Assembly (NCBI GenBank): GCA_019115525.1
Contig: DXDJ01000049.1
Span: 1-33,360 of the forward strand
Direction of reading: 5' to 3'
Origin: Candidatus Helicobacter avistercoris
Lineage (GTDB): Bacteria > Campylobacterota > Campylobacteria > Campylobacterales > Helicobacteraceae
DNA length: 33,360 nt
Of the stretch, positions 1 through 33,360 are shown in pieces. The position numbers were made by a program, and so were the translations under genes. The notes beneath the pieces are model-generated. The model did not search any database and had not been told where the DNA came from. It was given only the letters and a program-made list of their open reading frames with translations. The number at the start of each line of letters is the position of its first letter. Positions within the stretch are counted from its first letter, which is position 1.

Positions 1-38
1 AAAATATTTTTGGTAAAAATCTTTAGAAAGGAGGGACG

Positions 39-398
39 ATGTTAAGAAGGATTTTTTGCTCCTTAAAAATTAGTTTCTATCTAAAAAATTACTTCTTTGG
101 GTTAATTATCTACATTCTTCTTATGGGATATTATCTAGAGATGTTAATGGGAGGAGAATTTAAAGTAGCCGCACTTGTAATGAGTGTCAATCTATTTTTG
201 TTTCCTTTTGCAACACTAATGTATGAGGTAATAAGAGAAACTTTTCTTGGGGAGCAGGTTTTTATAATGAGCTTGAAGTATCTTTTTTTCTTAAAAGCAA
301 TTGTCAAACTCATTATTTTCTTTTTTTCAATTCCACTAGGTTGTTGTGGAATCTTATACATCATTTATAAAACAAGGAGAAATCATGATGAGGATTAA
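39..398 (+). CDS. hypothetical small membrane protein
   Basis: Open frame with several hydrophobic segments; AGGAGGG-like RBS just upstream of the ATG. Confidence 0.55.
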   Translation: MLRRIFCSLKISFYLKNYFFGLIIYILLMGYYLEMLMGGEFKVAALVMSVNLFLFPFATLMYEVIRETFLGEQVFIMSLKYLFFLKAIVKLIIFFFSIPLGCCGILYIIYKTRRNHDED

Positions 399-690
399 TA
401 CTCTAGCGATTGTTGGATTAATTGCCATTTCTTTTAATGGTTGTAATAGCAAAAAGAGCAAGCTTTCTAGTGCATATACCGATCTATGTCAAAGAACAGG
501 AATAGATTATGGATTGTGCAGATGCTTGGCAAAAGAAACCTTTGATAGTCTTGAAGATTCTGAAATTAATTTTCTAACAGCTCAAGTTATTCCAAATGAA
601 GCAAATAAAAAGAGGCTTCAGCAGATTCAACAAAAAATAGCCAATCTAATGCAAAGTGAAAAACTTCTAAAAAGCTGTCAGGGATATTGA
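385..690 (+). CDS. putative lipoprotein, small hypothetical
   Basis: Start taken at MMRINTLAIVGLIAISFNGCNSKK (lipobox-like FNGC) after an AAGGAG-like RBS; the listed ORF starts earlier at 346. Confidence 0.6.
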   Translation: MMRINTLAIVGLIAISFNGCNSKKSKLSSAYTDLCQRTGIDYGLCRCLAKETFDSLEDSEINFLTAQVIPNEANKKRLQQIQQKIANLMQSEKLLKSCQGY

Positions 691-1230
691 TCTTAAAAGT
701 CTCAGCACCTTCAAGCGATTCTCGGCAAATTCTTTGTGGGCCTTGCTATGGCAATGATTACTCACACAAAACACTCCCAAAGCAGGGATATTAAATCTCC
801 TTGCCACAGATAGCACTGAGAAAAACTCCATATTCTCTAGCAAGATTCCTCTCTCTTTCATTCTAAGAGCATAAGCGGAATCTATGCAAATATAATTACT
901 AGAATTGACAATGGCTTGAGGGAGATTCAAATCAAGGATTTTGCTGATTGTTTCACATGAAACATTTTCAAGACTTTTGACTTCTTGCTTAAGGGGTGTA
1001 TAACTCTCTCCTACTAGCAATGAGCCTTCTATCTGAGTGGCTTGTGTGCTGACAAAAAGCTCTAGCAAATCCACTTCTTTATCATAGCTCCCTGCACTTC
1101 CTACAAATACCAAGCTCTCCACTTGCTCACTCATACAAAGTTTGCTTAGAGTGATTGCACTCTCTACCAACCCTACGCCAATACTCCTTGCAAACTCAAA
1201 CTCTTCACCATTTCCAGCACATACAAACAT
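667..1230 (-). CDS. nucleoside phosphorylase-like protein (PNP/UDP/MTAN superfamily)
   Basis: VFVGSAGSYDKEVDLLELFVS and AYALRMKERGILLENMEFFSVLSVARRFNIPALGVFCVSN resemble the nucleoside phosphorylase fold (ME-FFSV-A). Start likely at MFVCAGNGEEF. Confidence 0.7.
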   Translation of the reverse strand: MFVCAGNGEEFEFARSIGVGLVESAITLSKLCMSEQVESLVFVGSAGSYDKEVDLLELFVSTQATQIEGSLLVGESYTPLKQEVKSLENVSCETISKILDLNLPQAIVNSSNYICIDSAYALRMKERGILLENMEFFSVLSVARRFNIPALGVFCVSNHCHSKAHKEFAENRLKVLRLLRSISLTAF

Positions 1231-1287
1231 TTTTTCTCCAACCATTTCCAAAAACAAGATAAAATCCTAACCAAAAGGAAACTTAGA

Positions 1288-2115
1288 GTGCATTATAAAG
1301 CAAAAAAGAAATACGGACAAAACTTCTTAAAAGATAGTTTCTTCTTGCGACAGATTGTCCAAGCGATTCCCAACACTTCCTCACAAGTGATTGAGATTGG
1401 GATTGGCTTGGGTGATTTGACCGATGAGCTACTCAAAATCCACAATTTGATAGCTTATGAGGTAGATGAAGACTTATGTTCTTTGCTTGCTAAAAGGCAT
1501 TCTAGTTTGCTAGAAACGCAAAAACTTAGACTGATCCTAGGCGATGTTTTGGAGATTGAGGGCTCCACAGGATGGCTACACCCAGAGCCATATTTTTTGG
1601 TATCCAACCTCCCTTACTACATCGCCACACTGATTGTCTTAAAGCTTCTTAGAGATGAGAAGTGTAAGGGATTTGTCGTGATGACCCAAAAGGAAGTGGC
1701 AGAAAAATTCTGCGCTCAAGTGGGGGAGAAAGAGTTTTGTGCTCTTAGCGTTATAGCTCAAAGTGTGGGAGAAATTGAGCTTCTTTTTGAAGTTCCTGCA
1801 AGTGCTTTTGAACCTGCTCCAAAAGTTACTTCAGCAGTATTTCGAGTGATAAAAAAACCTAACCACCCTAGAATGGAAGAGATAGAAAAACTTGAGGTTT
1901 TACTCAAAGCCGCATTTTGTGCGCCTCGTAAAAAACTAGAGAAAAATCTAGCAAATTTCTATCCCAAGCAAGAAGTTGAGGAGATTTTTTCACATCTAGG
2001 CATAGATAAAAATCTAAGACCTCATCAAGTCAGCACTACGCTCTATCACCAAATTTTAGAATATGAGGAAAAATATGGAAAACAACGAACAAAAGAATAT
2101 GCCGCACCACAATAG
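1288..2115 (+). CDS. ksgA: 16S rRNA dimethyladenosine transferase
   Basis: KKKYGQNFLKD, VIEIGIGLGDLT, VSNLPYYIAT motifs of KsgA/RsmA. Confidence 0.95.
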   Translation: MHYKAKKKYGQNFLKDSFFLRQIVQAIPNTSSQVIEIGIGLGDLTDELLKIHNLIAYEVDEDLCSLLAKRHSSLLETQKLRLILGDVLEIEGSTGWLHPEPYFLVSNLPYYIATLIVLKLLRDEKCKGFVVMTQKEVAEKFCAQVGEKEFCALSVIAQSVGEIELLFEVPASAFEPAPKVTSAVFRVIKKPNHPRMEEIEKLEVLLKAAFCAPRKKLEKNLANFYPKQEVEEIFSHLGIDKNLRPHQVSTTLYHQILEYEEKYGKQRTKEYAAPQ

Positions 2116-4072
2116 GGAGCAAGGAAGAGAGCGTCGAGCAAACAATAATGCTCCTAGAGAAAACAATAAAGAGGAAAAAAACGATCAAAACAAAGAGCAA
2201 AGACGCCCTCAAAATCGTCGCTGGAATGGCAAAAATAATCACGCTCACAACAATAAACCAAAAGAAGAAGGTGAAAACCTTGAGGGTGTAAGAGAGATTA
2301 AAAGTGTCAATGAAAAAGGCAATCTCAATCTCCACAGAGAACTCAAACGCAATGTAGATAACAACACAAGGATTCAGAAAGGAAGTCTAAATCCTCACTA
2401 CAAGCTCAACCTCAACACAAAAGCAAAAGTGAGAATCACTCCCTTAGGTGGTCTTGGAGAGATTGGGGGGAATATGACAGTGATTGAGACTGAAAAGTCT
2501 GCAATCATCATCGATGTAGGGATGAGCTTCCCTGATGAGAGTATGCCAGGGGTAGATATCCTAGTGCCTGATTTTAGCTACTTGCAAACTATCAAAGACA
2601 AGATTGAAGCAGTGATCATCACTCATGCACATGAGGATCACATCGGAGCCGTTCCTTATCTCTACAAAGTTATGCAATTCCCACTTTATGGAACACCGTT
2701 GCCTCTAGGAATGATTAGTGCGAAGTTTGATGAGCATGGGCTAAAAAAATATCGCTCACTCTTTAGAAGTGTAGAGAAGCGAAAGCCCATCAAAATCGGA
2801 GAATTTGAAATCGAGTGGATTCATATCACTCACTCAGTGATTGATGCCTCTGCTTTGGCAATCCGCACAGAAGCAGGGGTGATTCTTCACACAGGAGATT
2901 TTAAAATCGATCATACCCCTGTTGATGGGCTTCCCACAGATTTGCACCGATTGGCTCATTATGGAGAAGAGGGGGTAATGGTGCTTCTAAGTGATAGTAC
3001 AAACTCTCACAAAAGTGGCGTAACACCAAGCGAGTCAGTGGTAGGACCAACATTTGATGCACTTTTCAAACAAGCTGAGGGCAGGGTGATTATGAGTACA
3101 TTTAGCTCAAATATTCACCGAGTTTATCAAGCCATCAACTATGCAATCAAATACAATCGAAAAGTCGCTGTCATTGGAAGATCAATGGAGAAAAACCTAG
3201 AAATCGCAAGAGAGCTAGGCTATATCAATATCCCTCAAGGAATCTTCATCGAAGCTCATGAAGTAGAAAAATATCCTGATGAAGAAGTGCTAATCGTTAC
3301 CACAGGATCACAAGGGGAGACTATGAGTGCACTCTATCGTATGGCAACAGATGAGCATCGCCATATCAAAATGAAACCAAGCGATCTTGTTATCATCTCT
3401 GCCAAAGCCATCCCAGGCAATGAGGGTTCAGTCTCTGCTGTGATTAATTTCTTGCAAAAGAGTGGAGCAAGAGTGGTGTATCAAGACTTTAGCGAGATTC
3501 ATGTCAGCGGACACGCCGCCCAAGAGGAGCAAAAGCTTATGCTTCGCCTCATCAAACCAAAATTCTTCCTCCCAGTCCATGGAGAATACAATCACATTAC
3601 AAAGCACAAAGAAACAGCTATGAAGTGCGGTGTGCCTGAGAAAAATATCTATCTTATGGAAGATGGCGATCAAATCGAGGTCAATCCAAACTATATCCGC
3701 AAGGTTCGCTCTGTAAAAACTGGAAAAGTTTTCATCGATAATCAAGCTGATAGACAGATTGATTACAACACAATCCTAGATCGCCAAAACCTTGCAAGTG
3801 ATGGGATCCTCACTCTAAGTGCGAAAGTAAATAGAAAAAATATGGATTTTGATGGAGAGGTGAGGATTGCAAGCTTTGGACTAACAAATCCACGAGATGA
3901 AAAAGCTCTAAGCAAAGAAGTAATCGATACTCTCACTTTGATGCTCAAAGCATTCAAAAAAGATTTCAATGCCAAAAATATTGAAATTGAGGCGAGAAAT
4001 ATCCTCAAAAAACTGCTTTTCAAGCGTTACAAAAAATATCCTCTCCTCTCGCTTTCTTTCTTTGTGGATTAA
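2063..4072 (+). CDS. rnj: ribonuclease J with a long charged N-terminal extension
   Basis: Metallo-beta-lactamase/beta-CASP motifs (ITHAHEDHIGAVPYLY, HTGDFKID, HVSGHAAQEE, PVHGEYNH). Start may be 2075 (MENNEQ). Confidence 0.95.
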   Translation: MRKNMENNEQKNMPHHNREQGRERRANNNAPRENNKEEKNDQNKEQRRPQNRRWNGKNNHAHNNKPKEEGENLEGVREIKSVNEKGNLNLHRELKRNVDNNTRIQKGSLNPHYKLNLNTKAKVRITPLGGLGEIGGNMTVIETEKSAIIIDVGMSFPDESMPGVDILVPDFSYLQTIKDKIEAVIITHAHEDHIGAVPYLYKVMQFPLYGTPLPLGMISAKFDEHGLKKYRSLFRSVEKRKPIKIGEFEIEWIHITHSVIDASALAIRTEAGVILHTGDFKIDHTPVDGLPTDLHRLAHYGEEGVMVLLSDSTNSHKSGVTPSESVVGPTFDALFKQAEGRVIMSTFSSNIHRVYQAINYAIKYNRKVAVIGRSMEKNLEIARELGYINIPQGIFIEAHEVEKYPDEEVLIVTTGSQGETMSALYRMATDEHRHIKMKPSDLVIISAKAIPGNEGSVSAVINFLQKSGARVVYQDFSEIHVSGHAAQEEQKLMLRLIKPKFFLPVHGEYNHITKHKETAMKCGVPEKNIYLMEDGDQIEVNPNYIRKVRSVKTGKVFIDNQADRQIDYNTILDRQNLASDGILTLSAKVNRKNMDFDGEVRIASFGLTNPRDEKALSKEVIDTLTLMLKAFKKDFNAKNIEIEARNILKKLLFKRYKKYPLLSLSFFVD

Positions 4073-5032
4073 ATGATGTTAGAGATTGCAAAAAAAGTCT
4101 TAAGAGATGAGGCAGAGGCACTCATCAAAGCGAGTGAGAGAATTGATGAGAGAGAGTTAAGAGGGATTGTAGATTCTATTCTTTCTTTGAAAGGAAAATT
4201 CATCGTGATGGGTGTGGGCAAAAGTGGGCATATCGGAGCTAAGATTGCTGCCACTTTGGCAAGTACAGGCACTCCTAGTTTTTTCATCCACCCAACAGAA
4301 GCACTTCATGGGGATTTGGGGATGATTGAAAAAGAAGATATGGTTTTAGCCATTAGTTTTAGTGGAGAGAGCGATGAGCTAAAAATGGTTCTTCCTCACA
4401 TCAAGAGAATCGGGGCCAAAATCATCACAATGACAAAAAACCCCAAAAGCTCAGTTTCACTCCTTGGGGATTATTTCTTAAGCCTTGAGATTGAGAAAGA
4501 AGCTTGTCCTCTTAATACCGCTCCTACAACTTCTACAACTCTCACTCTAGCCCTTGGGGATATGCTAGCAGTATGTTTGATAAAAGAGAGAAATTTCACT
4601 CATCAAGACTTTGCATCCTTTCACCCAGGAGGAGCACTAGGGAAAAGACTTTTTGTGAAAATCAAAGACTTGATGCAAAGAGACAATCTCCCCTTTATTG
4701 ACACCAAACTCTCCCTCAAAGACGCAATCATCACAATGAGTGAAGCAAGGCTTGGCAGTGCGATTGTGGTAGAGAATGGCAAACTTGTAGGAGTGTTAAG
4801 TGATGGGGATTTAAGAAGAGCGATGATGAGAAGTGATTTTGATTTTGAGCGTCCAGCAGTGGATTTTGCAACACTTCATCCTAGGGTATGTGAGGATGAA
4901 AATCTTTTGGCTTATGAGGCACTTAAGATTATGGAAGAAAATAAGATTCAGCTTCTACTTATCACGGATAAGGAAAAAAGAGTTTTGGGCGTTTTACATC
5001 TTCACACACTCATTGAGGCAGGGATCAAATGA
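4073..5032 (+). CDS. kdsD: D-arabinose-5-phosphate isomerase, KpsF/GutQ family (SIS + CBS domains)
   Basis: MGVGKSGHIGAKIAATLASTGTPSFFIHPTEALHGDLGM; HPGGALGKRL; C-terminal CBS pair. Confidence 0.93.
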   Translation: MMLEIAKKVLRDEAEALIKASERIDERELRGIVDSILSLKGKFIVMGVGKSGHIGAKIAATLASTGTPSFFIHPTEALHGDLGMIEKEDMVLAISFSGESDELKMVLPHIKRIGAKIITMTKNPKSSVSLLGDYFLSLEIEKEACPLNTAPTTSTTLTLALGDMLAVCLIKERNFTHQDFASFHPGGALGKRLFVKIKDLMQRDNLPFIDTKLSLKDAIITMSEARLGSAIVVENGKLVGVLSDGDLRRAMMRSDFDFERPAVDFATLHPRVCEDENLLAYEALKIMEENKIQLLLITDKEKRVLGVLHLHTLIEAGIK

Positions 5033-5283
5033 TAATCGATCCTTTGCTTGCACGAATCGATCAAATCTATACAGAAATAGAAGTGGCAAGAGAAGAGCTT
5101 CAAATCGCTCTAAATCTTGCTTCTCTCTCAATGCAAGACTATATCCTCATCAAACGAGGCTCAAAAGATATGCCAGAGCATCTCAGTGCTTGGGCATTTG
5201 AAGAGATCAACACTTCAGCAGATAAACTCAAAAGTACACTTGAAAAGCTTAATAAGCTCAGAAAAGAGTTTTTTGTGGTGTGA
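5029..5283 (+). CDS. conserved hypothetical protein
   Basis: Overlaps the kdsD stop (ATGA) and is probably translationally coupled; no diagnostic domain recognised. Confidence 0.65.
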   Translation: MIIDPLLARIDQIYTEIEVAREELQIALNLASLSMQDYILIKRGSKDMPEHLSAWAFEEINTSADKLKSTLEKLNKLRKEFFVV

Positions 5284-5468
5284 ATCCCTTTTTTTAAAAG
5301 ATTACTTTTTATTCTTACTATACAAATCATAAAAAATAAATTATTAAAAAGTGAAATTCTCTTTCATATAAGTATTATTTAAAAATATTTTTTAATTCTA
5401 GTAATGATAATTTTTTTGATAGAATATTTTAAGATTTATCATATATAAAAATACTAAGAGGAAAGATT

Positions 5469-6659
5469 ATGGGAATTGAAACTGTTGTTTCATTATGCAT
5501 TGTTATTTTAGTTTTTATCACAATGATTGGATTACGCTTTAAGAATAAAAACGTAGAAGGAAGTGCTACAAATATCATCATCGTAACAGGGATTTGTTGT
5601 ACTTTTTTTGGAATTTCTCTTGGACTTTTTAATTTAGATACAAATAATATTGAAAGTAATCTAGAAGACCTTATTGATGGAATAAAAACAGCATTTATAC
5701 CTTCAGCAGTTGCGATTACACTTGCTCTTTTTTGGAAAATATTTTCGCTTTTTAGTGCTGTTTTTGTAAAACAAAGTGAAGTAGCCACAGATTGCTCAAT
5801 TGACGATATCGTTGCACAGCAAAATGAAATTCAAAAACTTCTTCATATTCTTCTTAATTCCAAAGATTCTTTACTACTTGAATCTTTAGATGCAATCCGA
5901 AAAGAAACAGCAGTTGGTTTTAGAGATATGGGCGATAAGTTTGAGAAGTTTGCTGAAAAAATAGCAAGTGACAATTCTCAAGCTCTTATAGATGCATTAC
6001 AGGAAGTAATTCGTGATTTTAATGCCAAAATAAATGAGCAATTTGGTGAAAACTTTAAACACCTCAATGAAGCGGTAGGAAGACTATTGGATTGGCAAGA
6101 TCAATATGCAAATGAACTAGATAGAAAAATTCATTTCTTTAATTCATTACAGGCAACTCTAGAAGAACTATCCACAAATTACAGCCAAATCGTTGAGAAT
6201 TCAAAAGAATTTGAAAAATGTGCTAGAAGTCTCCAAGAAATTAATGAACATAATCTTTCCCAACAAGAATATCTTTCTGATAATCTAGAACAACTCTCTG
6301 AACTTTGCTCTACTTTACAAAGAGATATCCCAAACGTTGCTAATCAACTTCAAGAAATGGGTAAAGCCTCTCAAAATTTCTTAAATCAAGTAGAAGAAAC
6401 ACATACTAGCCTTATTCAAGATTTCAATTCATTCCACGAAAAAATTACTGATTCATTAGAAAAAAATATCACAGGTATTAGTGAGAAAATTGGAAATCAA
6501 GCAGAAGCTCTTCATAAGAATTTAGAATCTGCATTACAAGATTCTCTTAATAGTCTAGGTTCACAACTTGCCTCACTCTCTACTAAATTTGTCAATGATT
6601 ACACACCTCTAACCGAACAATTAAAACGAGTTGTTGAAATCTCAAAAGGAATTAAATGA
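5469..6659 (+). CDS. MotA/TolQ/ExbB proton channel-like protein with long coiled-coil tail (ZorA-like)
   Basis: Three predicted TM segments (VSLCIVILVFITMIGL, IIIVTGICCTFFGISLGLF, AFIPSAVAITLALFWKIF) followed by about 250 aa of coiled-coil-like sequence; AGAGGAAAG RBS; ATGA overlap with the next gene. Confidence 0.8.
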   Translation: MGIETVVSLCIVILVFITMIGLRFKNKNVEGSATNIIIVTGICCTFFGISLGLFNLDTNNIESNLEDLIDGIKTAFIPSAVAITLALFWKIFSLFSAVFVKQSEVATDCSIDDIVAQQNEIQKLLHILLNSKDSLLLESLDAIRKETAVGFRDMGDKFEKFAEKIASDNSQALIDALQEVIRDFNAKINEQFGENFKHLNEAVGRLLDWQDQYANELDRKIHFFNSLQATLEELSTNYSQIVENSKEFEKCARSLQEINEHNLSQQEYLSDNLEQLSELCSTLQRDIPNVANQLQEMGKASQNFLNQVEETHTSLIQDFNSFHEKITDSLEKNITGISEKIGNQAEALHKNLESALQDSLNSLGSQLASLSTKFVNDYTPLTEQLKRVVEISKGIK

Positions 6660-7366
6660 GTTTAAAAAGTAAAAAGAAAGAAGGGGAAGAATATTGGATT
6701 AGTCTAAGTGATATGATGACTGCTTTGGCATTATTGTTTTTGCTTATTGCAATCATCTATATGCTCAAAGTCAAAGACAGTGTCAAAGTTCCTCAAATTT
6801 ACAAAGAAGTAACACAGGGATTAAGCGAAGCTCTCAATAAAGAATTTGAACAAGATTTCAAAAAATGGGGAGCCGTTATGGATAAAGATTTGACTATTAG
6901 ATTTCAGTCTCCAGATATTCTTTTTGATACAAGTGAGTCTGAAGTAAAAGATCGTTTCAAACAAATTCTTGATGATTTTTTTCCAAGGTATCTCAACATT
7001 ATGATGAAGAAAGAATTCATCAATAATATTGAAGAAATTAGAATTGAGGGACATACTTCATCAGTATGGACGAAATATACACCAGAAGATATTGCATATT
7101 TTAAAAATATGGAGCTCTCCCAAGAAAGAACAATGAATGTGTTGGAATATATTTTTGAATCTCCACAAATGGACTTGGATAATAAAGAACGCAAATGGTT
7201 AAGAAGACATTTTAGGGCAATCGGCTTTTCTTCTGCAATTCCTCTAAATTCAAAAGGAGAAGAAGCAAAGACAAGAGAAGAAGAAGATACAAAACGCTCA
7301 CAAAGAGTTGAATTTAGAGTAAGAACAAATATTGAAGAAAAAATTGAAAAGGTTATCAATCAATGA
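6656..7366 (+). CDS. MotB/OmpA-like single-TM protein (ZorB-like)
   Basis: N-terminal WISLSDMMTALALLFLLIAIIYML (MotB-like TM with Asp19) and C-terminal OmpA-like domain (IRIEGHTSSVW..NMELSQERTMNVLEYI..RAIGFSS..KRSQRVEFRV). Confidence 0.85.
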   Translation: MSLKSKKKEGEEYWISLSDMMTALALLFLLIAIIYMLKVKDSVKVPQIYKEVTQGLSEALNKEFEQDFKKWGAVMDKDLTIRFQSPDILFDTSESEVKDRFKQILDDFFPRYLNIMMKKEFINNIEEIRIEGHTSSVWTKYTPEDIAYFKNMELSQERTMNVLEYIFESPQMDLDNKERKWLRRHFRAIGFSSAIPLNSKGEEAKTREEEDTKRSQRVEFRVRTNIEEKIEKVINQ

Positions 7367-8214
7367 AATTGATTGATTTTAAAACCTTTGAGCCATTAGA
7401 AAGACTTAGACAAATAATGGGTGCTGAATATATTCCATTAACTTCTAATTTTAATTTTATTGGACTTGATGAAGAAATAGAAAAATTACTTGAATCAAAA
7501 GGGATTGACATAAGTATAGAAGATCTAACTTATGGAAAAGATCAGACAATTCAATATAAAAATAAAAGAGTCATTCTTTATATTAGAGATTGGACAATTT
7601 ATTCTGAAAAACACTCAGAAAGTTCTCCAAAATTCCATATATCTTATTGTCAAACATTACAAAAGATGTTTGCAACTAAGCGTAAAAATCGATATGTTAT
7701 TGCTAGTAGAAATGATGGCTTATTTTTAGTTCATAGAATTGAAAATAATGAAATCAAAAGAACAGAAGAGGTTGAACTTGAGGTATGTAGCAATTGCTTA
7801 CATACAATAAGTTGGATGGGATACCATTCACAACTATCTAAATCAGAAAAACAAGAAATTAAAGATAGATTTACACTTGAGAATTTTTTTAAGTTTTATC
7901 CAAAAAATCTTATAGATGCGGTAGGAATTGCTCGAGATGAGATTGCCCGTAATAATGTATATCCTCCAAATTGGACTTATATTTCTGAAAAAACTCGAAA
8001 AGGGGTAAATTGGATGTGCCAAGAATGTGGTATTCATTTAGAAAAACACAAAAATTTTTTAGATGTTCATCACATTGATGGAAACAAAAGCAACTCTTTA
8101 TCCACAAATTTAAAAGTCTTATGTGTAGAATGCCACTCAAAAATACATTCACATATGCAACAATCTGATCGATTAAAAAATTTTCTAACTCTTAAAAAGT
8201 CCCTATTTATATAG
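7363..8214 (+). CDS. HNH endonuclease, putative effector of the ZorAB-like operon
   Basis: C-terminal HNH/treble-clef: CQECGIHLEKHKNFLDVHHIDGNKSNSLSTNLKVLCVECHSKIH; additional upstream CSNC; ATGA overlap with the upstream gene. Confidence 0.85.
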   Translation: MKLIDFKTFEPLERLRQIMGAEYIPLTSNFNFIGLDEEIEKLLESKGIDISIEDLTYGKDQTIQYKNKRVILYIRDWTIYSEKHSESSPKFHISYCQTLQKMFATKRKNRYVIASRNDGLFLVHRIENNEIKRTEEVELEVCSNCLHTISWMGYHSQLSKSEKQEIKDRFTLENFFKFYPKNLIDAVGIARDEIARNNVYPPNWTYISEKTRKGVNWMCQECGIHLEKHKNFLDVHHIDGNKSNSLSTNLKVLCVECHSKIHSHMQQSDRLKNFLTLKKSLFI

Positions 8215-8242
8215 ATTGTAAATGTTCATAACCATTTACAAT
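8215..8242. terminator. perfect 10-bp inverted repeat, likely bidirectional terminator between convergent genes
   Basis: ATTGTAAATG(8215-8224) - TTCATAAC - CATTTACAAT(8233-8242), beginning one base after the HNH stop codon. Confidence 0.55.
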
Positions 8243-8254
8243 AGAAAGCTTTTC

Positions 8255-8923
8255 TCAATACTCCTCTACATCCTCAAAAGCTTTGAGCCAATGGGCTAAA
8301 GTCGTCCCACTCTCAACAATATAAGTTCTAAGCCCTAGCTCACTTTTCCACCAATTAGAAGTATTGTAGTAAGGGTTTGGCACTCCGATGATGTAAAGCT
8401 TGGTATCTAATCCCTCTTGTTTAAACACACTCTTAAATGTATCATACGCTCTTGAAGTATGAAAGCTATCTGTGAGGATCAAAACTTCATGGAGATTATT
8501 TTCTTTGGCAAATCTCACAAAATCTCTAGCTTCCTCTAGCGTGCTTGTCGCACCATTTCTAGGGTTTTGCACCACTTCATAAGGGATTTTTAGAGAGCTA
8601 AGCACCAAAGAAAGCTTTTCAAACTCGCTTTGAAGCAGTCTATTATAAGTTTGGATATGGTTTTTGGGCTGAGTGATATAGATCTTTTTGACAATCTCGC
8701 TTTTATATAAGGCAATCGCACCATTAAGTCGAATCAGTGGATTCCCTCCTAAGATGAGTGCTCCCTCATAGCTGTAAGTAAAATTTTGCTTTTGAATTGG
8801 AGAAAATAAAAACTTATTGCCCTCAAAAACTTCAAGAATCTGCTCTTTTACTACTTCTTTTTCAAAAGCTTTTGCATAAGAGCTTAGCAAACTCTCTTTA
8901 TATACATACCCCACAAAACACAC
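8255..8923 (-). CDS. YdcF/SanA/ElyC-like DUF218 family protein
   Basis: EGALILGGNPLIRLNGAIALYKS..KIYITQ..NGATSTLEEARDFVRFAKENNLHEVLILTDSFHTSRAYDTFK is typical of DUF218 proteins. Confidence 0.85.
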   Translation of the reverse strand: MCFVGYVYKESLLSSYAKAFEKEVVKEQILEVFEGNKFLFSPIQKQNFTYSYEGALILGGNPLIRLNGAIALYKSEIVKKIYITQPKNHIQTYNRLLQSEFEKLSLVLSSLKIPYEVVQNPRNGATSTLEEARDFVRFAKENNLHEVLILTDSFHTSRAYDTFKSVFKQEGLDTKLYIIGVPNPYYNTSNWWKSELGLRTYIVESGTTLAHWLKAFEDVEEY

Positions 8924-8938
8924 AAGAAATAAGCTTTT

Positions 8939-9256
8939 TCATACACTGATCTTTGCTCCTACAATGCAATCATTTAAAATTTGAGGTTTTTTAATGCTTA
9001 GAGTGAAATGAATGATAGAGGGAAAATAAGAATTGATTTTCATTTTTAAATCTTGCAAAGCTTCTTCAAGTAGCCCATAAGTGTTGTTCTCAAACTCGAA
9101 TTTCAAAAACTCTACAATCTCAACATAGTTTAGATACTCTCCCTTATACTCATAACTAAACTCTCCATCAATGATAATGTTCTGCTTTTTTTCTCTCTCT
9201 TGAGGTAAAATCCCAATGATTGCTTGAAGTGAGAGATTTTGAATAAGTAGTGTCAT
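8939..9256 (-). CDS. folB: dihydroneopterin aldolase family protein
   Basis: IQNLSLQAIIGILPQEREKKQNIIIDGEFSY..YVEIVEFLKFEFENNTYGLLEEALQDL: FolB-like pattern. Confidence 0.8.
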   Translation of the reverse strand: MTLLIQNLSLQAIIGILPQEREKKQNIIIDGEFSYEYKGEYLNYVEIVEFLKFEFENNTYGLLEEALQDLKMKINSYFPSIIHFTLSIKKPQILNDCIVGAKISV

Positions 9257-9912
9257 TAAAAAATCCTTTTTTCCTCTCTTTTGATTAGACGGACAATATT
9301 TGGAATATGCGTATAAAGAATCAACGCACCAATAAGAAGCACAGGGGCGTGAGAGTGGATTTGTAAGTTAATATTGATACACTCTGGCAAAGAAAAGATA
9401 GAGGGGATAACAAAAGTAAGCACGATCCCACTTAAAACGCCAATGAGTGAAGAGAGTGAAGAGATTTTAAACACTTTTCCTACGATAAACCACACTATAA
9501 GTCCTATGCTTCCCTCAACTGGCATTAGCAAAAAAACTGAGCCAATCGAAGTGGCAACGCCTTTCCCTCCTGAGAAGTTGAGAAATGGGCTATAACAATG
9601 TCCGATAACTGAAAGCAAGGCAATCATCCATTGTGTGTCATAGCTTAGCCCAAAAATCTTTGCCAAAGCTACGACAATCATTCCCTTTGTCGCATCAAGG
9701 AGGATTGTAAGGATTGAGTAGAATTTTGCTTTGCTTGGATCAACTTCTTTTATCGCTCGATAGACATTTGTCGCTCCAATGCTTCCTGAGCCAATCTCTC
9801 GTAAATTGATTCCATACACGCTTTTGCAGATAAGCAGTCCAAAGGGAATCCCACCCATAACATAAGCCAAAATATAAAAAATCACATTGATATTGCTTAA
9901 AATTTCAAACAT
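9256..9912 (-). CDS. plsY: acyl-phosphate:glycerol-3-phosphate acyltransferase
   Basis: GGIPFGLLICKSVYGINLREIGSGSIGATNVYR; HCYSPFLNFSGGKGVATSIG motifs. Confidence 0.93.
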   Translation of the reverse strand: MFEILSNINVIFYILAYVMGGIPFGLLICKSVYGINLREIGSGSIGATNVYRAIKEVDPSKAKFYSILTILLDATKGMIVVALAKIFGLSYDTQWMIALLSVIGHCYSPFLNFSGGKGVATSIGSVFLLMPVEGSIGLIVWFIVGKVFKISSLSSLIGVLSGIVLTFVIPSIFSLPECININLQIHSHAPVLLIGALILYTHIPNIVRLIKREEKRIF

Positions 9913-21790: not shown

Positions 21791-22774
21791 ATGAATCCCC
21801 TAATCAGCGTAATTATCCCTATTTATAATGTTGCTCCATATCTAAGAGCGTGTTTGGATTCTATCCTTTCTCAAACCTATCAAAATCTTCAAATCATCCT
21901 AGTCAATGATGGAAGCACTGATGAGAGTGAAGATATTGCAAAAGAGTATTTAAGAGATGAGAGAGTAGAGCTAATCTGCGTGCAAAATGGTGGGCTAAGC
22001 AAAGCTAGAAATATTGGACTTCATCAAGCAAGGGGAGAGTATATTTATTTTATAGATAGTGATGATTATACTGCAAAGGGTTTTTTGCAAGAGATGGTGG
22101 AGATTGCGCAGAGGTTTGAAGTAGAGTTTGTGTGCAATGATCATATTGCTACTTTTGGAATCAATGAGCCAAAATACAAAGAGAGAATACAACCAAAAGA
22201 AATCGAGGTGGATTCTCAAAGCATTATGCTAGGGGGAGCGGTATGGAGATGTCTTATTGCAAAAAGTCTTTTGGTTAGAAGTGGGGTGAGTTTCTTAGAA
22301 GGCAAGATTTATGAAGATGAAGGGTTTTTGTATATGATCTTGCCTTTTGTGAATAAGTTTGTGCGATATTGCGGAGAGCCGTATTTTTACCGTCAAAGAG
22401 AAAACAGCATTATGAGCAATCATAAGAGGTTTAGAAGTTATGATTTGCTTGATGTGTTTGAGGCGATTTATCGCTTTTATCAAAGCAAGGGATTTTTGCA
22501 GAGATTAAATCCCCCATATTATTTTCTTCATTCCTGTGCTTATGGATATGAAAATGAAAAAGAGTATTTAAAAAAAGCCAAAAAACTTGCAAAAGACTTG
22601 CAACTGCCCCCCCCCCCTCCGAAAAATAGAGAAAGAATAGTTCTTGATGCTCTTGTGTTGATGCCTAGTGGAGGATTTTTTTATTTCATTCGCTTTTATC
22701 ATCGCTTCTTTAAAATATCTGCAAAGATAAAAAAGATATGCAAAATCTTTTATCATAACAAGCCAAAGAGATAA
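21791..22774 (+). CDS. family 2 glycosyltransferase, putatively phase-variable (C11 tract)
   Basis: ISVIIPIYNVAPYLRACLDSILSQTYQNLQIILVNDGSTDESED; EYIYFIDSDDYT; poly-C tract in the 3' part. Confidence 0.92.
   Translation: MNPLISVIIPIYNVAPYLRACLDSILSQTYQNLQIILVNDGSTDESEDIAKEYLRDERVELICVQNGGLSKARNIGLHQARGEYIYFIDSDDYTAKGFLQEMVEIAQRFEVEFVCNDHIATFGINEPKYKERIQPKEIEVDSQSIMLGGAVWRCLIAKSLLVRSGVSFLEGKIYEDEGFLYMILPFVNKFVRYCGEPYFYRQRENSIMSNHKRFRSYDLLDVFEAIYRFYQSKGFLQRLNPPYYFLHSCAYGYENEKEYLKKAKKLAKDLQLPPPPPKNRERIVLDALVLMPSGGFFYFIRFYHRFFKISAKIKKICKIFYHNKPKR
22607..22617 (+). repeat. homopolymeric C11 tract
   Basis: CAACTG-CCCCCCCCCCC-TCCG, encoding PPPPP. Confidence 0.97.
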
Positions 22775-32690: not shown

Positions 32691-32999
32691 TTAATACGCA
32701 GGGTTTTTAACGCATTTGATTTTGATTTTTTCTGCCACCATATTTTGAGAGTTTTTGGCTAAACCTACTTTGATGAAATCCCCTTGTTTGAGATCTACAA
32801 ACTTTTTGTCACTATCCCAGCCGATTCCACAAGATTCTTGTTTGATTTTTGTATAGGGCATAACCTTGATTGTGTTGCCATTGACTTGGATGGTTTTGTT
32901 TGCATTATCAATGCTATCAATCATTCCTTTGAAATCTGAAGCCATCAAAGCTCCTGTACTCAAAATCACTGCTATTGCTCCTGTAAGTAGAGTTTTCAT
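32691..32999 (-). CDS. small exported protein, DUF5666/OB-fold-like
   Basis: Signal peptide MKTLLTGAIAVILSTGALMA then DFKGMIDSIDNANKTIQVNGNTIKVMPYTKI..DLKQGDFIKV. Confidence 0.65.
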   Translation of the reverse strand: MKTLLTGAIAVILSTGALMASDFKGMIDSIDNANKTIQVNGNTIKVMPYTKIKQESCGIGWDSDKKFVDLKQGDFIKVGLAKNSQNMVAEKIKIKCVKNPAY

Positions 33000-33133
33000 A
33001 TTTTTCTCCTAGTTTGATTTTGCCTCTCTTAAGAGGTGATGGCGGAATTGTAAGAATCAAAAATAAATTTTATATAAAACTAAAATGATTTAATTTTATG
33101 AGATTGGGAGACAATAGAGCCACCCATTCCCTA

Positions 33134-33147
33134 GGGGGGGGGGGGGG
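33134..33147 (+). repeat. homopolymeric G14 tract flanked by an 8-bp inverted repeat
   Basis: CATTCCCT (33125-33132) - A - G14 - ATA - AGGGAATG (33151-33158); no substantial ORF. Confidence 0.95.
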
Positions 33148-33298
33148 ATAAGGGAATGGCATCTCAGAGGAGATGTGTTAAAAAATTCTATTGATAAAAA
33201 GGAGACTCAACGAAAAAACAAAAACCAATAATAAGGCTCTATGATGCCCTCAACCCTCTAACACCACAAAGAGAGTGAAGGCATCAGTAAACCTTATA

Positions 33299-33320
33299 TT
33301 CCTAGCCCAAAGGCTAGGAA
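33299..33320. other. strong hairpin, 9-bp stem, 4-nt loop
   Basis: TTCCTAGCC - CAAA - GGCTAGGAA. Confidence 0.7.
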
Positions 33321-33330
33321 ATGGGATTAT

Positions 33331-33354
33331 TGAGCTTTTTGCTCAGTTTTGTTT
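33331..33354 (+). terminator. possible intrinsic terminator
   Basis: TGAGC-TTTTT-GCTCA followed by GTTTTGTTT. Confidence 0.45.
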
Positions 33355-33360
33355 GTATCT

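Follow-up and report, generated by a model that had tools for sequence, protein, structure and literature searches.

Close to one end of the window, by which we mean the whole stretch of 33,360 nucleotides of Candidatus Helicobacter avistercoris DNA analysed here, lies a structured element of about 187 nt that runs on the minus strand from 33300 down to 33114, directly 3' of the tail of an autotransporter-type ORF. Sequence comparison identifies it as a pseudoknotted RNA that recurs in the genome, covaries strongly and has no counterpart among the Rfam families. With a probability of roughly one half, we regard it as a 3'-UTR riboregulator of phase-variable autotransporter mRNAs, which would act by base-pairing with the starts of autotransporter mRNAs.

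Position and architecture of the element

The window is the entire contig C35, so that its end at 33360 is the contig end. Contig C33 of the same genome breaks off at the base homologous to the window end, within a common repeat, and C23 continues this repeat for about 119 bp past the point where both stop. The extra 119 bp encode ESNGYTPISAIKTKIAPLKV..., a homologue of the C-terminal tail (ESNGYTPAVAKAKEVAPLKV...) that ends the C70 autotransporter. The earlier note had called 33100-33360 ORF-poor; ORFs are indeed few there, but in part because the contig end truncates the adjoining gene, and 33330-33360 is the coding end of a minus-strand gene. Read past 33360 by way of C23, the TGAGC-T5-GCTCA hairpin (33331-33345) falls inside the 3' coding end of the autotransporter tail. 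A plus-strand small ORF after AAGGAGAC was considered and rejected as a conserved gene: it occurs in C23 and H. cholecystus only, its ATG is ACG in the window, and the peptides are unrelated. The gene of a small DUF5666 protein (32691-32999, minus strand) adjoins the element, and four DNA stretches similar to it (71-77% identity) are grouped on contig C60 (C60:9881-11328, L049).

Table 1. Features of the element and its surroundings, in the 5' to 3' order of the minus strand
Feature	Position	Strand	Remarks
3' coding end of autotransporter-type protein tail (...DTNKTEQKAQ)	33330-33360	minus	truncated by contig end; ORF leaves window
Stop codon of the tail	33327-33329	minus	
P0, 9-bp hairpin between stop codon and element	33299-33320	minus	other copies keep the helix with a different sequence; C18 lacks it
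P5 hairpin	33230-33298	minus	covariance model matches and covariation
S1, lower stem of P5	33292-33298 with 33230-33236	minus	
L1, U-rich UUUACU	33286-33291	minus	
Upper stem of P5	33277-33285 with 33243-33251	minus	
S2 5' strand AUAGAG (extended by two bases, AUAGAGCC), in P5 internal loop on its 3' side	33237-33242	minus	pairs with 33114-33121
Hairpin UUGA-GUCUCCUUUUUA-UCAA	33191-33210	minus	exposes anti-Shine-Dalgarno GUCUCCUU (33199-33206)
Small hairpin AUCUC-CUCU-GAGAU	33161-33174	minus	neither position nor sequence conserved
P2 hairpin CCAUUCCCU/AGGGAAUGG, loop UAUC14	33124-33159	minus	C14 is the plus-strand G14, 33134-33147
S2 3' strand GGCUCUAU	33114-33121	minus	3' end of conserved element, closing the pseudoknot

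The plus-strand elements named in the earlier note are all present, each where it had placed them or within a base: the G14 tract between CCATTCCCT (33124-33132) and AGGGAATGG (33151-33159), the ATCTC/GAGAT repeat, TGATGCC/GGCATCA (33242-33248/33280-33286), the 9-bp hairpin and the T5 hairpin. In the RNA, S1 (AUAAGG/CCUUAU) and S2 (AUAGAG/CUCUAU) interleave as an H-type pseudoknot, in which the S2 5' strand directly abuts the S1 3' strand. Its first loop is U-rich (UUURCU or UUUGAU), an upper stem is inserted, and its large loop contains the hairpin or short stem that exposes UCUCC(UU), together with hairpin P2. The S2 complement is present in all own-genome copies that have the 3' sequence. 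UCUCC(UU), in a loop or between short stems, is found in the full-length own-genome copies read, in H. cholecystus C33 and in two H. brantae copies, and is absent from L211, a stand-alone H. cholecystus copy. The homopolymeric tract does sit in a hairpin loop, as had been proposed, namely that of P2. This stem is almost wholly different among copies (CCAUUCCCU/AGGGAAUGG, ACUAUCCUC/GAGGAUAGU, CUCCUU/AAGGAG), with the C- or CU-rich loop kept. In C23 and H. cholecystus this loop is C5; the remaining own-genome copies have C9-C14, and H. brantae has C12 or the CU-rich UAUCUCUCU.

Covariation, strand and distribution

The RNA structure of the element is well supported by comparison of its copies, and the proposal of a structured RNA has held up: both the folding z-score and the covariation of helices across copies exceed chance. 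In alignment A5, which joins homologous helices from 12 copies in three species with registers set by hand, 96.8% of cells are paired, as against 35-57% when the partners are slid as a control, and double-sided changes occur in 19 of the 31 pairs, as against 9.7 in shuffles. The long-range helix S2 alone has double changes in five of its eight pairs, and P2, with 100% of cells paired, in six of nine; on a model-fitted alignment of the conserved P5 hairpin they affect 10 of 16.

The earlier note had read the region on the plus strand, a view that the data do not favour. The RNA of the window folds with a z-score of -4.5 on the minus strand and -2.2 on the plus strand. Nine related copies fold significantly on the minus-equivalent strand (z from -3.9 to -7.3), and in all but one of the eight full-length copies of the own genome folding is clearly better on the autotransporter-sense strand; for H. 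cholecystus, as for one H. brantae copy, the z-score does not discriminate between the strands. In the autotransporter-sense reading, the wobbles amount to 19 G-U cells against a single A-C. This asymmetry and the better folding together assign the RNA to the minus strand, in the sense of the autotransporters, which makes poly-C rather than poly-G the functional tract. Nor does the region look like a phase-variable leader: no plus-strand gene follows it, and on the RNA strand the repeat lies downstream of a stop codon. The promoter suspected near 33071 likewise found no counterpart, 32900-33360 containing no plus-strand promoter-like match in a scan that covers Helicobacter promoters poorly.

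About ten copies of the element occur in the own genome. BLAST with the region returned further copies on C33, C23, C18, C10, C61, C73 and C66; those on C51 and C62 are truncated at the tract by contig ends, and C1 and C70 hold right-hand parts of the element. Where the gene is assembled (C1, C70, C18 and C66), about 30-140 nt separate the autotransporter stop codon from the element 3' of it, which is on the sense strand. PF03797 autotransporter beta-domains were confirmed on C1 and C66, and at 25 places across the own genome. The flanks of most copies diverge just past the equivalent of 33114-33121, and mraY-murD adjoins both the C73 locus and the C3 locus of H. brantae, which look orthologous between the species.

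When a covariance model of the conserved hairpin was run against 121 genomes of the family, convincing matches were confined to the same genus: 10 copies in the own genome (11 matches listed, one of them an antisense reading), 19 in H. brantae MIT 04-9366 (G001) and one in H. cholecystus ATCC 700242 (G003), which has at least four more copies truncated at contig ends. A second covariance model added one H. cholecystus copy and weaker copies in G002. Among 399 genomes of the order, the element was found in four congeners of genus g1 (the three named genomes and, more weakly, G002), and there were two other, weak matches, in G187 (inside an ORF) and G294. H. brantae carries tandem pseudoknot modules, two or three per single autotransporter gene (L150, L151, L154, L155 and L158). 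L211 keeps the pseudoknot and a CU-rich loop with no autotransporter adjoining, and unrelated genes follow it. The idea that the element belongs to every autotransporter was discarded, genes on C13, C53 and C8 and those of the congener G004 being without it; among these, the C13 gene and all those of G004 are autotransporters with a G-tract. The 3' flanks of the G004 autotransporters (L168-L171) share a different conserved flank, with an anti-SD-like run GAATCTCCTTCC after TTTTCATTTAGATTC; they gave no match with the covariance models, and this flank may be an analogous or diverged element.

Searches against known RNAs and mobile elements were negative. The Rfam scan that the earlier note had proposed gave no family at or above the gathering score (Rfam 15) in the window, the matches in related loci were chance ones below the threshold, apart from a genuine tRNA that lies outside the element, a tRNA/tmRNA scan of the window found none, and collections of plasmid and phage records held no match to the element.

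The exposed loops and their predicted partners

Tracts of G10-G14 occur in the first codons of autotransporters in the own genome and its relatives, shortly after an AAGGAG Shine-Dalgarno (SD); in own-genome autotransporter mRNAs, G11-12 falls within the early codons. The predicted duplexes of the C-loop with four autotransporter 5' regions reach -33.6 to -37.5 kcal/mol, compared with -14.2 kcal/mol for the best among 25 other gene starts used as controls. Such energies are a trivial outcome of C meeting G, yet they are specific to tract-bearing mRNAs. The anti-SD loops are modestly selective: they are predicted to pair best with the C1 autotransporter (-18.3 to -23.2; best control about -17.7), the only one for which the pairing clearly exceeds the controls. 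For the 22-nt anti-initiation sequence of C23, the start of the C1 autotransporter is the sole other own-genome site within three mismatches. A single colinear antisense duplex over SD and G-tract was ruled out, the loops being in the wrong order: the anti-SD precedes the C-tract in the RNA, so that a continuous duplex with the SD...G-tract cannot form and two separate contacts would be needed. Two further loci carry tracts of this kind. L107 (C70:20705-20718) is a G14 that precedes the start of the C70 autotransporter by about 130 nt, besides the in-frame G11; at L181 (G003:C36), one H. cholecystus autotransporter has a C11 on its 3' side, and the autotransporter that comes next downstream has a G10 in its start.

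The tract is 14 long in the window copy and 12 in the C33 copy, which have one other difference over 237 bp; since the lengths come from a draft assembly, the exact values are provisional. A difference of this kind between near-identical copies is as expected for a slippage tract. The earlier note had supposed that folding changes with tract length. In silico, with tracts of n = 5 to 18 on the minus strand, all nine P2 pairs form, the C-tract is unpaired (1.00), and the anti-SD loop is predicted to be 0.93 unpaired throughout. Because P2 remains intact at all n, the fold does not switch with length and only the reach of the loop varies; length-dependent refolding was accordingly rejected. Elsewhere in the window, a C11 tract (22607-22617, plus strand) lies inside a family-2 glycosyltransferase gene (PF00535, ORF 21791-22774), likely a phase-variable surface-sugar gene. 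The 1.48-Mb own genome has about 35 tracts of at least 11 G/C, many of them in autotransporter starts or promoter regions, and its candidate phase-variable set is unusually large.

Parallels exist in other bacteria. In Staphylococcus aureus, UCCCCUG in the icaR 3'-UTR pairs with the SD of its own mRNA (PMC3868564); regulators of the icaR type are marked by demonstrated pairing of the two mRNA ends, with a block of translation and cleavage by RNase III. Here too, a pyrimidine-rich anti-SD, UCUCC(UU), lies 3' of the autotransporter ORFs that it would regulate, placed for SD pairing in cis or trans; unlike icaR, the element is a multi-copy pseudoknotted family common to many paralogous genes, has a second loop with a length-variable C-tract, and its pairing is a predicted one. 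In Helicobacter pylori, a C/U loop of the sRNA RepG binds the G-repeat of tlpB (PMC8295292). The comparison with RepG, already drawn in the earlier note, is apt, but the element resembles the sRNA side, with its C/U-rich loop, and not the G-repeat target side. Both have a C- or C/U-rich hairpin loop facing homopolymeric G-repeats near the 5' ends of surface-related genes in Helicobacter, and the loop, exposed in the predicted fold, is complementary to the putative target repeats, a likeness of working rather than of identity. RepG is a stand-alone sRNA, encoded between the hp1043/hp1044 homologues, whose conserved terminator-hairpin loop meets a variable target in a 5' UTR. The element lies in 3'-UTRs behind autotransporters, its loop is itself the variable repeat, its putative targets are G-tracts inside codons, and in the own-genome copies no U-run follows the C-loop hairpin, unlike the RepG terminator hairpin. 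RNAIII of S. aureus binds the coa SD and a downstream coding site by C-rich loops (PMC2837412), a division of labour like the one proposed here between a loop that contacts the SD and another, rich in C, that contacts a site in the coding region, although sequence, bacterium and architecture are unrelated and RNAIII is without a pseudoknot of such type. Finally, a T-repeat in the promoter of NikS/HPnc4160 of H. pylori changes the level of this sRNA (PMC8322730); in both cases phase variation would act through a regulatory RNA, with the repeat here in an exposed loop and not in a promoter. Taken by analogy, these systems suggest a two-contact riboregulator like RNAIII on coa or the icaR 3'-UTR, with a RepG-like C loop.

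Competing explanations and significance

We infer that the element is transcribed and processed, and its targets and direction of regulation are likewise putative. Once an autotransporter gene is transcribed, the pseudoknot would mark and protect the 3' end, or a 3'-UTR-derived sRNA would be released. In cis or trans, the UCUCCUU loop would pair with the Shine-Dalgarno AAGGAG(AC) of autotransporter mRNAs, while the C-tract loop would have as its partner the G11-12 tract of their first codons; these contacts would lower translation and/or present double strand to RNase III. Slippage of the C-tract would tune the strength of its contact with the G-tract, and slippage of the G-tract would switch the autotransporter reading frame. 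The C5-only loop of C23 and H. cholecystus, the absence of an autotransporter at L211 and the autotransporters that have a G-tract but not the element weigh against this pairing model, as do the triviality of the C/G energies and the need for two separate contacts.

The element might instead serve 3'-end stability or termination only, its pseudoknot with the U-rich loop 1 blocking 3'-5' exonucleases or aiding termination and its C-tract and anti-SD loops having no target. This is the most serious competitor, though we hold it clearly less probable than riboregulation. It would suit the pseudoknot being the most conserved part of the element, and H. brantae carrying, after a single autotransporter, two or three repeats of the pseudoknot that lack the two loops, with a U-run (GGCTCTGTTTTT) after the S2 3' strand; yet the U-runs of the own genome are weak or missing, and the C-rich loop and UCUCC(UU) are kept in copies from three species despite complete change of the surrounding helices. 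Much less probable is an element that works as DNA: it would be the terminal part of an autotransporter cassette that duplicates or recombines, would be homogenised by gene conversion, and its hairpins and tracts would serve recombination. The roughly ten copies with flanks diverging immediately outside, the near-identical copies at different loci (the window and C33) and the unrelated genes after L211 agree with such a cassette, but an excess of 19 G-U over one A-C in helices is expected of RNA and not of symmetric DNA sites, some loci look orthologous across species (mraY-murD, above), and plasmid and phage records gave no match. Least probable of all is an sRNA or leader that is read from the plus strand and carries a G-tract, or its variant in which GGA loops (AAGGAGA) titrate CsrA. 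On that strand AAGGAGAC is SD-like, an ATG follows it in C23 and H. cholecystus, and AAGGA fits the CsrA motif; but the wobbles, by their asymmetry, and the folding energy both speak for the minus strand, conservation is lacking in the short ORFs that begin at the ATG, and no plus-strand gene follows, the autotransporters being on the opposite strand.

Returning to the riboregulator, one may tentatively go further, to a possibility that we rate as doubtful: that these are 3'-UTR regulators with a phase-variable seed loop, in which C-tract length would set the strength of pairing with the G-tracts of dozens of autotransporter genes and so link the on/off switch of surface antigens with an RNA network that is graded and cross-acting. 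If this is true, the antigen families of these Helicobacter species would be under the control of two mutually pairable length-variable repeats, the G-tract in the coding region and the C-tract in the 3'-UTR loop, and a new layer would lie above frame-shift phase variation.
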